A stretch of DNA of 62,478 nucleotides, from positions 1 through 62,478 of the forward strand of contig JAAYEJ010000029.1 in assembly GCA_012728835.1 (NCBI GenBank). The letters are read 5' to 3'. Each line of letters opens with the position of its first letter. Position 1 is the stretch's first letter. Positions 2,451 to 35,701 of the stretch are shown here, piece after piece. Source of the stretch: Candidatus Brocadiaceae bacterium (lineage in GTDB: Bacteria; Planctomycetota; Brocadiia; SM23-32). The position numbers and the translations under genes are program-made. The notes under the pieces are model-generated. The model was not told the origin of the DNA. It saw only the letters and a program-made list of their open reading frames with translations, and made no database searches.

Positions 2451-3773
2451 ATGAGCGATCGTGACGTTGTGCGGGAAGCCGTCGCCCGGATCCGTTCGGG
2501 GCCCGTGACGACGGGCGTCATCGGCCTGGGCTACGTGGGGCTGCCGCTGGCGCTGCTCTGCGCCCGGCGTCTGGGCACCGTGGTGGGGCTGGAAGCGGAC
2601 CCCGAGCGCGTCGAGGCGGCCCGGGCGTGCCGGCCCTACATCGACGACGTGACGGCGGCCGAGCTGCAGGAGGCCGCCCGCGCGGGCTTTCGCGCGACCA
2701 CCGACCCCGCCGAGCTGGCGGGGTGCGACGTGATCGTCATCTGCGTGCCCACGCCGCTGCGCAAGACGCGCGACCCGGACCTCTCGTACATCATCCAGAG
2801 CGTCGAGGCGGTGGCCGCCCACATGCGGCCCGGCAAGCTCATCGTGCTGGAGAGCACGTCGTATCCGGGCACGACCGACGAACTCGTCCGTCCCTACCTG
2901 GAGAAGGACGGGCTGACGGCGGGGCGGGACTTCTTCCTGGCCTTCAGCCCCGAGCGCATCAACCCGGGCCCGGCCTACCGGAAGTTCAACCTGGTCAACA
3001 CGCCGAAGGTCGTCGGCGGCATCACCCCGGCGTGCACGGAGGTGGCCGCGGCCTTCTACGGGAAGATCGTGCAGACCGTCGTGCCCGTGTCGAACAGCCG
3101 CGCGGCGGAGATGGTGAAGCTGATCGAGAACACCTACCGCAGCGTCAACATCGCGCTGGCCAACGAACTGGCGCAGATGTGCAACGAACTGGGCGTGGAC
3201 GTCTGGGAGGTCGTCGATGCCGCCCGGACGAAGCCGTACGGCTTTGAGGCCTTCTACCCGGGGCCCGGCCTGGGCGGGCACTGCATCCCCGTGGACCCCT
3301 TCTACCTGGCCTGGAAGGCGCGCCTGCACGGCATCGAACCGCGGTTCATCGACCTGGCCGGACGCGTCAACGCCGAGATGCCCCGCCACGTGGTGAGACT
3401 GGTCACCGACCTGCTGAACGAGGCCGCCCGACCCGTGCGCGACTCGCGCGTGCACGTGCTGGGCGTCGCCTATAAACCCGACGTGGCCGACACGCGCGAG
3501 TCGCCGGCCCTGCCCATCATGGAGTCGCTGAGGCGCAAGGGCGCGTGCCTGTCATACACCGACGCGCACGTGCCGTCCGTGCGGCTGGCCGGAGGCGAGG
3601 AACTGCGCTCGGTGCCGCTGGCCGACGCCGACCTGCCCGGGGCGGACCTGGTGCTCATCGTCACGGACCATGCGGACTTCCCGTGGGGCGAGATCGTGTC
3701 GCAGTCGCGGCGCATCCTGGACACGCGCAACGTGCTCAAGGACTTCCGCGAGCCGCACATCCGGAAGCTGTAG
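2451..3773 (+). CDS. Nucleotide-sugar dehydrogenase (UDP-GlcNAc/ManNAc 6-dehydrogenase type)
   Basis: This 440-residue enzyme belongs to the UDP-glucose/GDP-mannose dehydrogenase family, which oxidises the C6 hydroxyl of a nucleotide sugar to a carboxylate in two NAD-dependent steps. The Rossmann motif GLGYVGLPL is at residues 25-33. The central-domain motif has Lys223 in MVKLIENTY. The catalytic Cys278 lies in GPGLGGHCIPVDPFY; this CIPVDP form is typical of the WbpA/WecC-like branch, whereas UDP-glucose dehydrogenases usually have CFPKD. The product would feed surface polysaccharide synthesis, but no glycosyl cluster is adjacent, so the substrate is uncertain. The ATG follows GGAGA. The gene converges on a radical-SAM gene across a repeat array. 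Confidence 0.9.
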   Translation: MSDRDVVREAVARIRSGPVTTGVIGLGYVGLPLALLCARRLGTVVGLEADPERVEAARACRPYIDDVTAAELQEAARAGFRATTDPAELAGCDVIVICVPTPLRKTRDPDLSYIIQSVEAVAAHMRPGKLIVLESTSYPGTTDELVRPYLEKDGLTAGRDFFLAFSPERINPGPAYRKFNLVNTPKVVGGITPACTEVAAAFYGKIVQTVVPVSNSRAAEMVKLIENTYRSVNIALANELAQMCNELGVDVWEVVDAARTKPYGFEAFYPGPGLGGHCIPVDPFYLAWKARLHGIEPRFIDLAGRVNAEMPRHVVRLVTDLLNEAARPVRDSRVHVLGVAYKPDVADTRESPALPIMESLRRKGACLSYTDAHVPSVRLAGGEELRSVPLADADLPGADLVLIVTDHADFPWGEIVSQSRRILDTRNVLKDFREPHIRKL

Positions 3774-3800: not shown

Positions 3801-4173
3801 GGAGGGGCACGCTCCGTCGTGCCCGCTCCTGCAATCACCGGCCGCTCGCCATCCCCGGCCGCGACAGAGCGCGGCCCTCCACTTGCACGGACGGTTCACG
3901 CCGCTGGAGGGGCACGCTCCGTCGTGCCCGCTCTCGCAATCACCGGCCGCCTGCCATCCCCGGCCGCGACAGAGCGCGGCCCTCCACCGATCCCCGGCCG
4001 CGACAGAGCGCGGCCCTCCACTTGCACGGACGGTTCACGCCGCTGGAGGGGCACGCTCCGTCGTGCCCGCTCTCGCAATCACCGGCCGCCTGCCATCCCC
4101 GGCCGCGACGGAGCGCGGCCCTCCACTTGCACGGACGGTTCACGCCGTTGGAGGGGCACGCTCCGTCGTGCCC
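3801..4173. repeat. REP/BIME-like array 1 (four A and four B hairpins)
   Basis: Hairpin A (GGAG, arms GGGCACG/CGTGCCC, loop CTCCGT) starts at 3801, 3906, 4045 and 4150. Hairpin B is the opposite-facing relative (arms GGCCGCG/CGCGGCC then CCTCC) and starts at 3857, 3962, 3996 and 4101. The A-B pair repeats every 105 bp, and one extra B adds a 34-bp step. Three of the four B copies have loop ACAGAG instead of ACGGAG. The array fills the gap between two converging genes. Remaining bases of the gap (3774-3800, 4174-4242) hold a GTAG palindrome at 4180-4208 and nothing else recognised. Confidence 0.95.
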
Positions 4174-4242: not shown

Positions 4243-5730
4243 TCAGGACTGCTCGCCGGAGGGTGCCTCGGCGGCCAGGGCGTCGTACTTCGCCTGGATC
4301 GCCTTGAGGATGGGGACGTTGTAGAGCCACCAGGAGCAGGCGGGGATGCTGCGGACCTCGCCGGTGTCGACGTCCTCGTAGGCGAAGCCGGAGGCACAGC
4401 GGACCAGGCGGGCCGATTCGAGCGAGTGGGTCTCCTCGAAGGGCAGCACGATGACCCTGAGCGGGTCGCGCAGGTGCGTGTGCGCGCGCAGTTGGTCGGC
4501 CAGGGGCTTGCCGGCCAGCAGGCCGGTGAAGAGCCGCAGGAGCGCGAGCTTCGGCGAGCCCTGCATCACCCGGCGGGTGTCGCAGGATCGGTGCCACCAG
4601 CCGTTCATCGCCCGGAGCGCCCTGAGGCGGCCCGGGCGTTCGCCCAGCGTCTCGGCGACGTCCAGCGCGTCCCGGGCGGCCTCGGCCAGCGGCCTCTTGA
4701 GGAAGTGGCTGACGGGCCGGTAGCGTTCGCCGTCGCTGATCAGCAGGGTGGCGGACTCGCAGTTCGGGTGCACGCTCTGGAACGTCTCGCGGTGGCCGGC
4801 TCCGACGCTGGACAGGATGCCGGTGAACTCGTTCTGCATGCCCAGCGGCAGGAACTCCACCGGCTCGTCCAGCGCGGCGTCGACCATCTGTTCGACGTCC
4901 TCGATGGTGGTGACGGCCGTGGTCTCGTATCGGTCGTTGTCCCACGTCTCCGTCAGGGGCAGCAGGTAGAGGCCCTTGAGGTGGCTGCGGTGCTCGTGGC
5001 AGAAGGCGATCGTGTCGGCCATGTGCCGGTCGTTGATGCCGCGGGCGCAGCAGCACATGATGATGTTCTGTCGGCGCTTGCTGAAGCGGCGCATGTTCTC
5101 CAGGGCCTGGATCTTCTTGGCGGCGACGCTCGTGTTCTTGCGCATGCCCGCGTAGATCTCCGGCGCGCGTCCGTCGAACCCGAGCAGGATGGGCACGTCC
5201 TTCTCGCAGAGGCGGCGGCAGTAGTCCTCGTCGGCCAGCTTCAGCCCGTTGGTCACCACGAAGATGGTCAGGCCGAACGAGCGCCCGAGGTCGATCAGCT
5301 CGAACAGGTCGTCGCGGCAGGTCGGCTCGCCGCCGAAGAAGTGGACGACCGGCTTCGGCTCCCACTGCGACAGGCCCTTGAAGATGCGCTCGAAGTACTG
5401 TCGCGGGGGGTAGAACTCGAACCGCATCGACGGGACGTTCGCCACGCAGATCGGGCAGTTCATGTTGCAGCGGTTCGTCACGTCCAGGAACACCATGCGG
5501 GGCGAGCCGTGGGCGAAACAGGTGTCGCACGTCAGGCTGCAGGCGGGCACCCGGGCGGGGTCGAAGCGCGCCAGGCGCCGCTTCGCCTGCCAGGCATCCG
5601 CGTCGTTGCTCACCACCGCCTCGCTGTAGCCGCAGGTGGGACAGGTGCGGGCCAGGTAGACCTGCCCGTCGCGGATGACGTGTTCGACGGGCACGCGGGC
5701 ACGGCACTTCTCGCAGACGCCGTAGTTCAT
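4243..5730 (-). CDS. Radical-SAM enzyme of the tetraether/membrane-spanning-lipid synthase (Tes/MSS) type
   Basis: This 495-residue protein has the radical-SAM triad Cys88, Cys92, Cys95 (CNMNCPIC) and the SAM-binding GGEP at about 133-136. Two features point to the family of archaeal tetraether synthase (MJ0619/Tes). First is an N-terminal rubredoxin-like knuckle, Cys6-x2-Cys9 and Cys30-x2-Cys33, built as in 'C..C...DGKVY...TCP.C'. Second is a further cluster Cys64, Cys68, Cys71 just before the radical-SAM motif. There are additional cysteines near residue 225 (MCCCARG) and at the C-terminus. The length matches Tes (about 500). Known members couple lipid tails through sp3 C-C bonds; whether this one does is inference. 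It stands alone, without lipid genes beside it. The start at 5730 places the knuckle at the very N-terminus, as in the family. Confidence 0.8.
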   Translation of the reverse strand: MNYGVCEKCRARVPVEHVIRDGQVYLARTCPTCGYSEAVVSNDADAWQAKRRLARFDPARVPACSLTCDTCFAHGSPRMVFLDVTNRCNMNCPICVANVPSMRFEFYPPRQYFERIFKGLSQWEPKPVVHFFGGEPTCRDDLFELIDLGRSFGLTIFVVTNGLKLADEDYCRRLCEKDVPILLGFDGRAPEIYAGMRKNTSVAAKKIQALENMRRFSKRRQNIIMCCCARGINDRHMADTIAFCHEHRSHLKGLYLLPLTETWDNDRYETTAVTTIEDVEQMVDAALDEPVEFLPLGMQNEFTGILSSVGAGHRETFQSVHPNCESATLLISDGERYRPVSHFLKRPLAEAARDALDVAETLGERPGRLRALRAMNGWWHRSCDTRRVMQGSPKLALLRLFTGLLAGKPLADQLRAHTHLRDPLRVIVLPFEETHSLESARLVRCASGFAYEDVDTGEVRSIPACSWWLYNVPILKAIQAKYDALAAEAPSGEQS

Positions 5731-12010: not shown

Positions 12011-12284
12011 GGGGCCGTGCGCTCCGCTCGAAGTCTGCTGCGCGGCAGTAACGCCAGGGCGACTCAGGGCAGGCGATCCCACGGCAGACGGGGTACTGCT
12101 TATGGCTGCTGGCTTCCGCCCCTGACCAGGTTCGCAGCCGCCCGACTCCATGGGACCCACCCCTCAACGCCGTCCCTGAGGTCCTTATCCAACACAGAGA
12201 CAGAACTCCTCCCGGAGTGGTCAGCCCTGCTCAAGCGGTTTGCAGGTTACAGGGCACCGCTAGCGCCCCGCTTAGCACGGCCCC
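12011..12284 (-). ncRNA. ffs: Large (Bacillus-type) SRP RNA with Alu domain
   Basis: The minus strand folds as the 270-nt class of bacterial signal recognition particle RNA. The ends pair perfectly: GGGGCCGTGC (12284-12275) with GCACGGCCCC (12020-12011). The Alu part near the 5' end reads GTGCTAAGCGGGG, then AGCGGTGCCCTGTA and CGCTTGAGCAGGGC, very close to the B. subtilis scRNA. The S-domain hairpin has the conserved apex ACCTGGTCAGG, GCGGAAGCC and AGCAGCCATAAGCAG, closed by CTCAGGG/CCCTGAG at 12174-12180 and 12063-12069. A T-rich run follows the 3' end. Length is 274 nt against about 271 in B. subtilis. It precedes dnaX, as in Bacillus. Mature ends are inferred from pairing. Confidence 0.95.
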
Positions 12285-33596: not shown

Positions 33597-33678
33597 GCTG
33601 GCATCCCGGGTCGGCGCCCCCCTATAATGAGGTCCGAGGCCACGGTTGGGGGGCCCTCGGTCTCCGAAAGGGGTGTCC

Positions 33679-34038
33679 GTGAAGACCTGCCGGGTGACGA
33701 TCGCCGATACCGACGGCGTGCTGCTGGACCGGGCCGAGGTGGCCCTGGGGAGCCTGCAGCGCCTGCGCGGCCTGATGGGGCGCCGAGCCCTGCCGCCGGG
33801 CGAGGGCCTGCTGATCCCGCACTGCAGCTCCGTGCACACCTTCTTCATGCGCTTCCCGATCGACGTGGTCTACCTGTGGCGGGACAACCGCGTCCTGAAG
33901 ATCGTCCACGCGATGCGGTGCTGTCGCGTCTCGGCCTGCTGGTCGGCGCGGTCCGTGCTGGAGATGCCGGCGGGCTGGGCAGAGGCACACGACCTGCGCG
34001 CCGGAAGGACCCTGACGTTCCACGACATCGCACCGTGA
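33679..34038 (+). CDS. DUF192 family protein
   Basis: A 119-residue DUF192 protein. The family signature is clear: SLQRLRGLMGRRALPPGEGLLIPHCSSVHTFFMRFPIDVVYLWRDNRVLKI, followed by VLEMPAGWAEAHDLRAGRTLTF. DUF192 is a small beta-rich fold of unknown function, sometimes exported; no signal peptide is seen here. GTG at 33679 is chosen because AAAGGGG precedes it by 5 nt. A TATAAT at 33623-33628 may be its -10 box, with a poor -35. It ends just before repeat array 2. Confidence 0.82.
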   Translation: MKTCRVTIADTDGVLLDRAEVALGSLQRLRGLMGRRALPPGEGLLIPHCSSVHTFFMRFPIDVVYLWRDNRVLKIVHAMRCCRVSACWSARSVLEMPAGWAEAHDLRAGRTLTFHDIAP

Positions 34039-34064: not shown

Positions 34065-34527
34065 GGAGGGGCACGCTCCGTCGTGCCCGCTCCTGCAATG
34101 ACCGGCCGCCTGCCATCCCCGGCCGCGACGGAGCGCGGCCCTCCATTTGCACGGACGGTTCACGCCGTTGGAGGGGCACGCTCCGTCGTGCCCGATCCTG
34201 CAATCACCGGCCGCTCGCCATCCCCGGCCGCGACGGAGCGCGGCCCTCCACTTGCACGGCCGGTTCACGCCGTTGGAGGGGCACGCTCCGTCGTGCCCGC
34301 TCCTGCAATCACCGGCGGCCTGCCATCCCCGGCCGCGACGGAGCGCGGCCCTCCACTTGCACGGACGGTTCACGCCGTTGGAGGGGCACGCTCCGTCGTG
34401 CCCGCTCCTGCAATCACCGGCCGCTCGCCATCCCCGGCCGCGACGGAGCGCGGCCCTCCACCGACTCCCGGCCGCGACGGAGCGCGGCCCTCCACCGACT
34501 CCCGGCCGCGACGGAGCGCGGCCCTCC
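34065..34527. repeat. REP/BIME-like array 2 (four A and six B hairpins)
   Basis: The same hairpins as array 1. A starts at 34065, 34170, 34275 and 34380, an exact 105-bp period. B starts at 34121, 34226, 34331, 34436, 34470 and 34504; the last two steps are 34 bp. All B loops are ACGGAG. The array fills the gap between the converging DUF192 and ilvC genes; the remaining 34528-34563 holds only a short GTAGC/GCTAC palindrome at the ilvC end. Confidence 0.95.
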
Positions 34528-34563: not shown

Positions 34564-35619
34564 CTACTTGCCCCAGTTCTCCGGGCGGAGGCTGCGGACG
34601 GCCGCGCCCGCGCGCCACATCTCCGAGTTCTTGATCTTGTCCAGCTCGACGCGCAGCTTCTGCTGGTAGTCGGGGCGGCTGTTGCTCTCCAGGACGATGC
34701 GCGTCTCGGTGCCGTTCTTGACGCTCTCGTAGAGCTTCTTGAAGACGGGGGCGACGGCGTCGCGGAAGCGGTCCTTCCAGTCGAGCGCGCCGCGCTGCGC
34801 GGTGGCGCTGCAGTTGGCGTACATCCAGTCCATGCCGTTCTCGGCCACCAGGCGGATGAGGCTCTGGGTGAGTTCCTCGACCGTCTCGTTGAATGCCTCG
34901 CTCGGCGTGTGGCCGTGGGCGCGCAGGACGTTGTACTGCGCCTCCATGACGCCGGCCAGGGCGCCCATCAGGATGCCGCGTTCGCCCGTCAGGTCGCTCC
35001 ACACCTCGTGCTCGAAGCTGGTGGGGAACAGGTAGCCGGAGCCGATGGCGATGCCGACGGCCAGGCAGCGCTCCTCGGCGCGGCCGGTGGCGTCCTGATG
35101 GACGGCGTAGCTGGAGTTGATGCCGCTGCCGTCCAGGAAGTTGCGGCGCACGGACGTTCCGGATCCCTTCGGGGCGACCAGGATCACGTCGACGTCCTCG
35201 GGCGGCACGACGCCGGTCTGCTCGCCGTAGACGATCGAGAAGCCGTGCGAGAAGTAGAGGGCGTCGCCGGCCTTGAGGCAGCCCTTCAGCGCGGGCCAGA
35301 CGATCTTCTGCGCGGCGTCGTTGAGGAGATACTGGACGATCGTGGCCTTCCGGGCGGCCTCCTCGATGGGGAAGAGGGTCTTGCCGGGCTCCCAGCCGTC
35401 GGCGACGGCCCGGTCCCAGTCCGCCTTGAAGTCGGGCGACTGGCCGATGATCACGTTGAATCCGTTGTCGCGCATGTTCAGCGACTGGGCGGGGCCCTGC
35501 ACGCCGTAGCCGATGACGGCGATCACTTCGTCCTTGAGTACCTCGCGGGCCTTCTCCAGTGGGAACTCGTCGCGGGTCACCACGTCCTCGACCACGCCGC
35601 CGAAGTCTATCTTCGCCAT
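34564..35619 (-). CDS. ilvC: Ketol-acid reductoisomerase
   Basis: IlvC (351 residues) isomerises and reduces acetolactate in valine/isoleucine synthesis. The NAD(P) motif GYGVQGPAQSLNMRDNGFNVIIGQ is at about residues 36-59. The all-helical C-terminal domain carries Mg-binding acidic residues (DLTGERGILMGALAGVMEAQY and the ETVEELTQSL helix). The GPAQ and DVILVAPKGSGTSVRRNFL forms resemble the slightly longer Bacteroidetes-like KARI branch. No ilvBN or leuABCD genes flank it. AAGGAG precedes the ATG at 35619. Upstream in-frame GTG 35658 is less likely. Confidence 0.95.
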   Translation of the reverse strand: MAKIDFGGVVEDVVTRDEFPLEKAREVLKDEVIAVIGYGVQGPAQSLNMRDNGFNVIIGQSPDFKADWDRAVADGWEPGKTLFPIEEAARKATIVQYLLNDAAQKIVWPALKGCLKAGDALYFSHGFSIVYGEQTGVVPPEDVDVILVAPKGSGTSVRRNFLDGSGINSSYAVHQDATGRAEERCLAVGIAIGSGYLFPTSFEHEVWSDLTGERGILMGALAGVMEAQYNVLRAHGHTPSEAFNETVEELTQSLIRLVAENGMDWMYANCSATAQRGALDWKDRFRDAVAPVFKKLYESVKNGTETRIVLESNSRPDYQQKLRVELDKIKNSEMWRAGAAVRSLRPENWGK

Positions 35620-35701
35620 GTCGGTGCTCCTTAGCTCAATGGAGGATCGCGCGTTCACGCGCCCACACGGCGATCGGCCGCGGGACGGGTCTCAGAGCGA
35701 C

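Follow-up and report, generated by a model that had tools for sequence, protein, structure and literature searches.

The 62,478-nt stretch of DNA analysed here (the window, contig C29 of a 3.07 Mb draft genome, G000, in 82 contigs and 96.9% complete) raises a specific question: what are the short, perfect hairpins that crowd the gap between two convergent genes, and what recognizes them? A sequence-only reading had described a pair of hairpins at 3801-4173 and proposed that they form a REP/iREP layout (BIME) moved by a RAYT transposase. The hairpins are real, and the sequences and coordinates given for types A and B are right, but the interval holds eight of them rather than two. They alternate in orientation, four of type A (24 nt, + strand) and four of type B (GGAG-GGCCGCG-CTC[C/T]GT-CGCGGCC, − strand), and the array occupies most of the intergenic gap. 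A second array of the same family, which that reading did not include, lies elsewhere in the window. The features are as follows.

2451-3773, + strand: UDP-sugar dehydrogenase gene, on one side of the first array
3801-4173: BIME-like array, eight REPs that alternate in orientation with a 105-nt period
3801-3824, + strand: REP hairpin A, GGAG-GGGCACG-CTCCGT-CGTGCCC
3857-3880, − strand: REP hairpin B, loop CTCTGT
3906-3929, + strand: REP hairpin A
3962-3985, − strand: REP hairpin B, loop CTCTGT
3996-4019, − strand: REP hairpin B (doubled), loop CTCTGT, 10 nt past the preceding B
4045-4068, + strand: REP hairpin A
4101-4124, − strand: REP hairpin B, loop CTCCGT
4150-4173, + strand: REP hairpin A
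4243-5730, − strand: radical SAM gene, on the other side of the first array
33646-34038, + strand: DUF192 gene, beside the second array
34065-34527: second array, ten REPs, between convergent genes
34564-35658, − strand: ilvC gene, beside the second array

Spacing in the first array is regular, with 32 nt tail to tail and 25 nt head to head generating the 105-nt period, and the spacers are near-identical between the 105-nt repeats of the arrays. Going from A to B, two stem pairs are swapped, G-C becoming C-G and A-T becoming G-C, as had been noted. The accompanying statement that the two types share head and loop and differ at four of 24 bases holds for the B copy at 4101-4124; the other three B copies carry the loop CTCTGT and differ at five. 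No Rfam family matched at this array.

The family extends across the genome. Scanning for the hairpin pattern with up to three mismatches returned 149 matches, where the reversed pattern gave 49; with zero mismatches the two counts were 90 and 0, an excess over the control that excludes chance as the source of the repeat. The search for both 24-mers that had been suggested finds, in the genome stretches around arrays, at least 98 copies that match A or B with at most one mismatch; these have two stems only and carry the GGAG head in 98/98 cases. Eighty-three are exact, 12 have loop changes and 3 have stem changes, all three C to T with a G-T wobble remaining. The sequence-only reading was to be abandoned if stem mismatches proved as frequent as loop changes or if no other copies existed; per site, the stem has changed less often than the loop in these 98 copies (p = 9e-5), and copies abound. 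They sit at about 29 places, many as lone hairpins, and 27 of the 29 arrays lie outside any predicted ORF. An exact match to the pattern occurs in none of 97 relatives, eight of them from the same family. A short, high-copy, mostly intergenic palindrome with a conserved tetranucleotide at its 5' foot, in alternating and regularly spaced copies, is what is called a REP, and its arrays BIMEs. REP arrays of this sort break draft assemblies: about 11 of the 29 terminate at a contig end, so the assembly was probably interrupted by them and the true copy number is probably higher. Contigs with a REP array at an end are C1, C4, C16, C19, C24, C52, C61, C70, C75 and C80. A rarer loop, CTCCTG, accompanies a GGAG head once in this genome (L080 3078-3101).

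The window contains no RAYT gene, as had been stated. A motif scan of the stretches around arrays found one on another contig.

C16 305-784 (L064 305-784), − strand: RAYT gene, 159 aa, outside the window
L064 276-299 and L064 807-830: A hairpins flanking the RAYT gene

The search for a RAYT gene bounded by the 24-mers thus succeeds: one A hairpin lies 5 nt past the stop codon and another lies 22 nt upstream of the ATG, in the same orientation, and four further REPs follow beyond the 3' hairpin. That the RAYT gene sits between REPs which are also scattered through its genome bears out the proposed BIME and RAYT layout. The protein has the catalytic motifs of the Y1 family, PDHIH (HUH) and YVRHNP (Tyr), and scores 88.3 bits on the NCBIfam model for REP-associated tyrosine transposases (NF047646, cut-off 80). 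On Pfam PF01797 it reaches 19.9 bits, below the cut-off of 23, and the conclusion from that model that the genome has no RAYT was a wrong negative about a gene lying next to an array. A Pfam-based search can miss a RAYT in this way. A Lentisphaerae homologue, 54% identical to the host protein (the host being the genome that contains the window), gives a match (E 1.3e-5) to the solved structure of E. coli TnpA-REP, 4er8, and has the same hairpin-flanked layout with stems of its own. The host gene has a G+C content of 62.7% against 71.5% for the window, and 79% at third positions against a mean of 92% in window genes. The radical SAM gene beside the window array (4243-5730, − strand) encodes an HMPTM zinc ribbon, and a paralogue that also has this zinc ribbon adjoins the RAYT locus (L064 889-2709, − strand).

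Both 24-mers fold as drawn, A at −8.2 and B at −9.7 kcal/mol (z −3.2 and −2.5); a unit made of A plus B forms a single long hairpin. The claim that selection acts on the folded strand had been built on the swapped pairs between A and B. These count as two events, both in a composite unit that has been amplified, and cannot alone show selection. Within the host genome there is no compensatory change besides A versus B and the copies are too alike, so this argument was set aside; compensation is demonstrable only across genomes, where it is plain. A first scan of named genomes, with head, loop and inner pairs fixed and three pairs free, gave 113 separate copies (loci L108-L187), 100 of them perfect in all three free pairs. 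A wider set, anchored only by the head GGAGGG, the loop CTYYGT and a final CC, gave 300 copies outside the host genome; the reversed pattern gave 0. Of these 300, 236 retain every one of the five free pairs, an unselected count, where base composition predicts about 10. The set includes 59 different stems, with pairs 6 and 7 varying less than they might because most of its loci were fetched with the inner two pairs fixed.

Among 70 distinct sequences chosen from these 300 copies, 90.8% of cells pair against 67.3% in shuffles, a percentage that leans high since this set omits same-stem loop variants and some single, mostly unpaired matches. Two-sided changes occur in 107 cells against 31 in shuffles that ignore genome relatedness, and sliding the partner by one base abolishes the pairing signal. 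The comparison across genomes points clearly to selection on the fold, so that this part of the earlier claim stands on the foreign copies rather than on A and B. Covariation of this kind is a mark of selection on the folded strand, common to DNA and RNA; it is the association with RAYT genes that argues for a fold acting as single-stranded DNA. The loops CTCC, CTTC, CTCT and CTTT also gave rise to the idea that the GGAG head pairs with the loop (with CTCC, wobble allowed), which was tested through co-change and rejected as a general rule. The loops CTCTGT and CTCCGT also accompany GTAG heads (L249, L282), so such pairing is not required, and the head abuts the stem and could hardly reach its own loop.

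The link between repeat and enzyme recurs in other genomes. In several phyla, homologous RAYT genes have GGAG-stem-CTYYGT hairpins with other stems on their flanks, and 38 of the 40 repeat-holding genomes, host included, have some RAYT homologue. A RAYT of the host clade (E < 1e-35) is present in 19 of the 39 other repeat-holding genomes, in 1 of 293 other phylum genomes sampled and in 0 of 97 relatives. The first two counts give an association of p = 3e-19, uncorrected for ancestry and with two different clade members as queries. The one exception among the 293, G143, has its RAYT (L259) flanked by a GGAG hairpin with the loop CTCCTG. The link is not absolute, because genome G235, from the same phylum, has 34 GGAG...CTCCGT hairpins with many different stems (L087, L101, L104, L107), and no RAYT of the host clade was found in it. 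REPs can apparently outlive their RAYT, and those of G235 are possibly orphans.

A REP/BIME family with its RAYT is a known kind of system. The conserved 5' tetranucleotide that had been invoked is present as well; that it reads GGAG, and not the described GT[AG]G, had been passed over. REPs are defined by GT[AG]G (PMC2817692, PMC3686654, PMC6006769), related repeats by GTAG and CGTC tags (PMC3733652), and described REP tags are almost all GT[AG]G. By the strict definition the present repeat, with its GGAG head, is a variant rather than a standard GTAG REP. GGAG as a word start is absent from PMC2817692, PMC3733652, PMC3686654, PMC8266576 and PMC6006769, and no further GGAG-type or Verrucomicrobia REPs were found in the openly readable papers. 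Judged by that literature, what is new is the GGAG tag, together with the RAYT clade that goes with it and their wide spread.

GGAG is the dominant head near RAYTs of this clade and stands directly at the stem foot, while the base before it varies. Near more distant RAYTs, both in relatives of the host and in other genomes, the heads seen are GT[AG]G. An offset GTGG tag upstream of GGAG, as in Pseudomonas, was considered and rejected: GT[AG]G occurs upstream in 8 of 100 copies near RAYTs, and the GTGG before many B copies in the host genome is incidental. Canonical GT[AG]G RAYT/REP pairs with varied loops occur in named genomes and relatives of the host (L249, L252, L253, L255, L276, L279, L281, L282), and among them are GTAG heads with CTCYGT loops.

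When 63 RAYTs are placed on a tree, a single branch (support 100/98) has all the labelled GGAG proteins to one side. Beyond it, the closest lineages whose tag could be read have GTAG, which suggests that GTAG is probably ancestral and that one switch to GGAG took place. The host RAYT pairs with a Fimbriimonadaceae RAYT (96/90), far from the host's kin. This position, together with absence from the relatives and the lower G+C content of the gene, points to arrival of the RAYT/REP pair by horizontal transfer.

A candidate basis for the switch can be seen in the protein. Residues W94, Q95, E100, H101 and R104 of E. coli TnpA-REP are discussed in relation to how the GTAG guide is recognized, and two subclasses sometimes have Arg in place of H101 (PMC6006769). 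With numbering fixed by alignment to 4er8, W94, R104 and an acid at position 100 are kept in GGAG and GTAG RAYTs, and Q95 in nearly all. Residue 101, in contrast, is His in 13/13 readable GTAG RAYTs and Thr, Arg or Ser in 17/17 GGAG RAYTs, and residue 102 is Gln in 15/17 GGAG RAYTs and 0/13 GTAG RAYTs; one GTAG row with a misplaced motif was left out of the count. The change at 101 and 102 is thus a possible specificity switch. With one switch on the tree, the match between residues and tag is a single co-occurrence, a correlation, and other residues also changed on the GGAG branch.

In the guide model of PMC8266576, the cut dinucleotide is set by tag bases 3-4 or 2-4. The model predicts that with GGAG the cut should still fall at C|T and might fall at C|C in place of C|A. 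The GGAG clade, with its changed tag, dozens of stems and matching residue change, offers a ready test of that model. Taken as a whole, we think it somewhat probable that the GGAG REPs and their RAYTs form a separate cross-phylum REP lineage, which would have arisen once from GTAG through altered guide specificity (T to G at tag base 2; His101 to Thr, Arg or Ser and residue 102 to Gln, E. coli numbering), spread between phyla by horizontal transfer, and been missed in part by the Pfam Y1 model and GTAG-based searches.

The window array itself is best read as a REP cluster, or BIME, of 24-nt hairpins (5' GGAG, 7-bp stem, CTCCGT-type loop). A RAYT whose gene lies at another place in the genome, between the same hairpins, would recognize them in the form of folded single-stranded DNA; we put the probability of this reading at about 0.92. 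By analogy with E. coli TnpA-REP, the RAYT would bind the folded strand at moments of exposure, such as on the lagging-strand template, and would cut beside the hairpin at a short site picked by the GGAG tag, predicted to be C|T. Rejoining would then carry REP pairs to new intergenic sites, and local amplification afterwards may have produced the arrays of period 105.

The regular 105-nt period and near-identical spacers also suit a passive tandem repeat grown by slippage or unequal recombination, in which the second REP type is only drift. Local amplification does occur, but such growth accounts poorly for copies at about 29 places with many lone hairpins, for covarying stems, and for a family common to several phyla and tied to RAYT genes, and it is the least probable of the explanations weighed here. 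Hardly better are the prospects of hairpins that work as RNA, as terminators or stabilisers of mRNA 3' ends, and that have no working link to any transposase. RNA would be expected to covary just as much, and each of the two window arrays has convergent genes around it, a setting in which a terminator acting in both directions would be of use. Convergent placement, however, is not clearly enriched (7/16 arrays against 9/45 gene pairs, p = 0.10), the genes around four arrays diverge, the hairpins are not followed by a T-run, and both the invariant unpaired GGAG foot and the RAYT association are left unexplained. A secondary RNA role is compatible with the REP cluster reading.

A comparison with known systems shows how much of the architecture is shared. 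The REP/BIME and RAYT systems of E. coli and other gammaproteobacteria (PMC2817692, PMC8266576) likewise have short, tagged, high-copy hairpins that alternate in orientation, two types of REP in each genome, REPs on both sides of the RAYT gene, and an HUH-Y1 enzyme with the W94/Q95/acid 100/R104 motif. The E. coli REP differs in its GT[AG]G tag and in its bulge, in place of which a perfect 7-bp stem and a conserved CTYYGT loop are found here, and E. coli TnpA-REP differs in having His at residue 101, which is Thr, Arg or Ser here, followed mostly by Gln at 102. The REPs of Stenotrophomonas and Pseudomonas and their group 3 RAYTs (PMC3686654, PMC8266576) resemble the present pair in the short perfect palindrome, the importance of loop bases, a length of about 150 aa and Asp at residue 100. 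Their tag is GT[AG]G and in Pseudomonas stands 2-3 nt off the stem, whereas GGAG abuts it.

The GTAG and CGTC repeat superfamilies (PMC3733652) are also tagged palindromes in inverted pairs, and their host groups overlap with those found here, GTAG repeats occurring in Planctomycetes and Verrucomicrobia; that catalogue has no GGAG superfamily. IS200/IS605 transposons share the Y1 HUH fold and strand-specific hairpin ends with a guide tetranucleotide. The host protein, in contrast, reaches 18.9 bits on the IS200 model (cut-off 55) while passing the REP transposase model, and here one gene accompanies many hairpins without a gene. Elsewhere in the window lie a gene for a tyrosine recombinase of the phage integrase family (361-1446, − strand; Pfam PF00589) and a bacterial large signal recognition particle RNA (12015-12280, − strand; Rfam RF01854, 150 bits).
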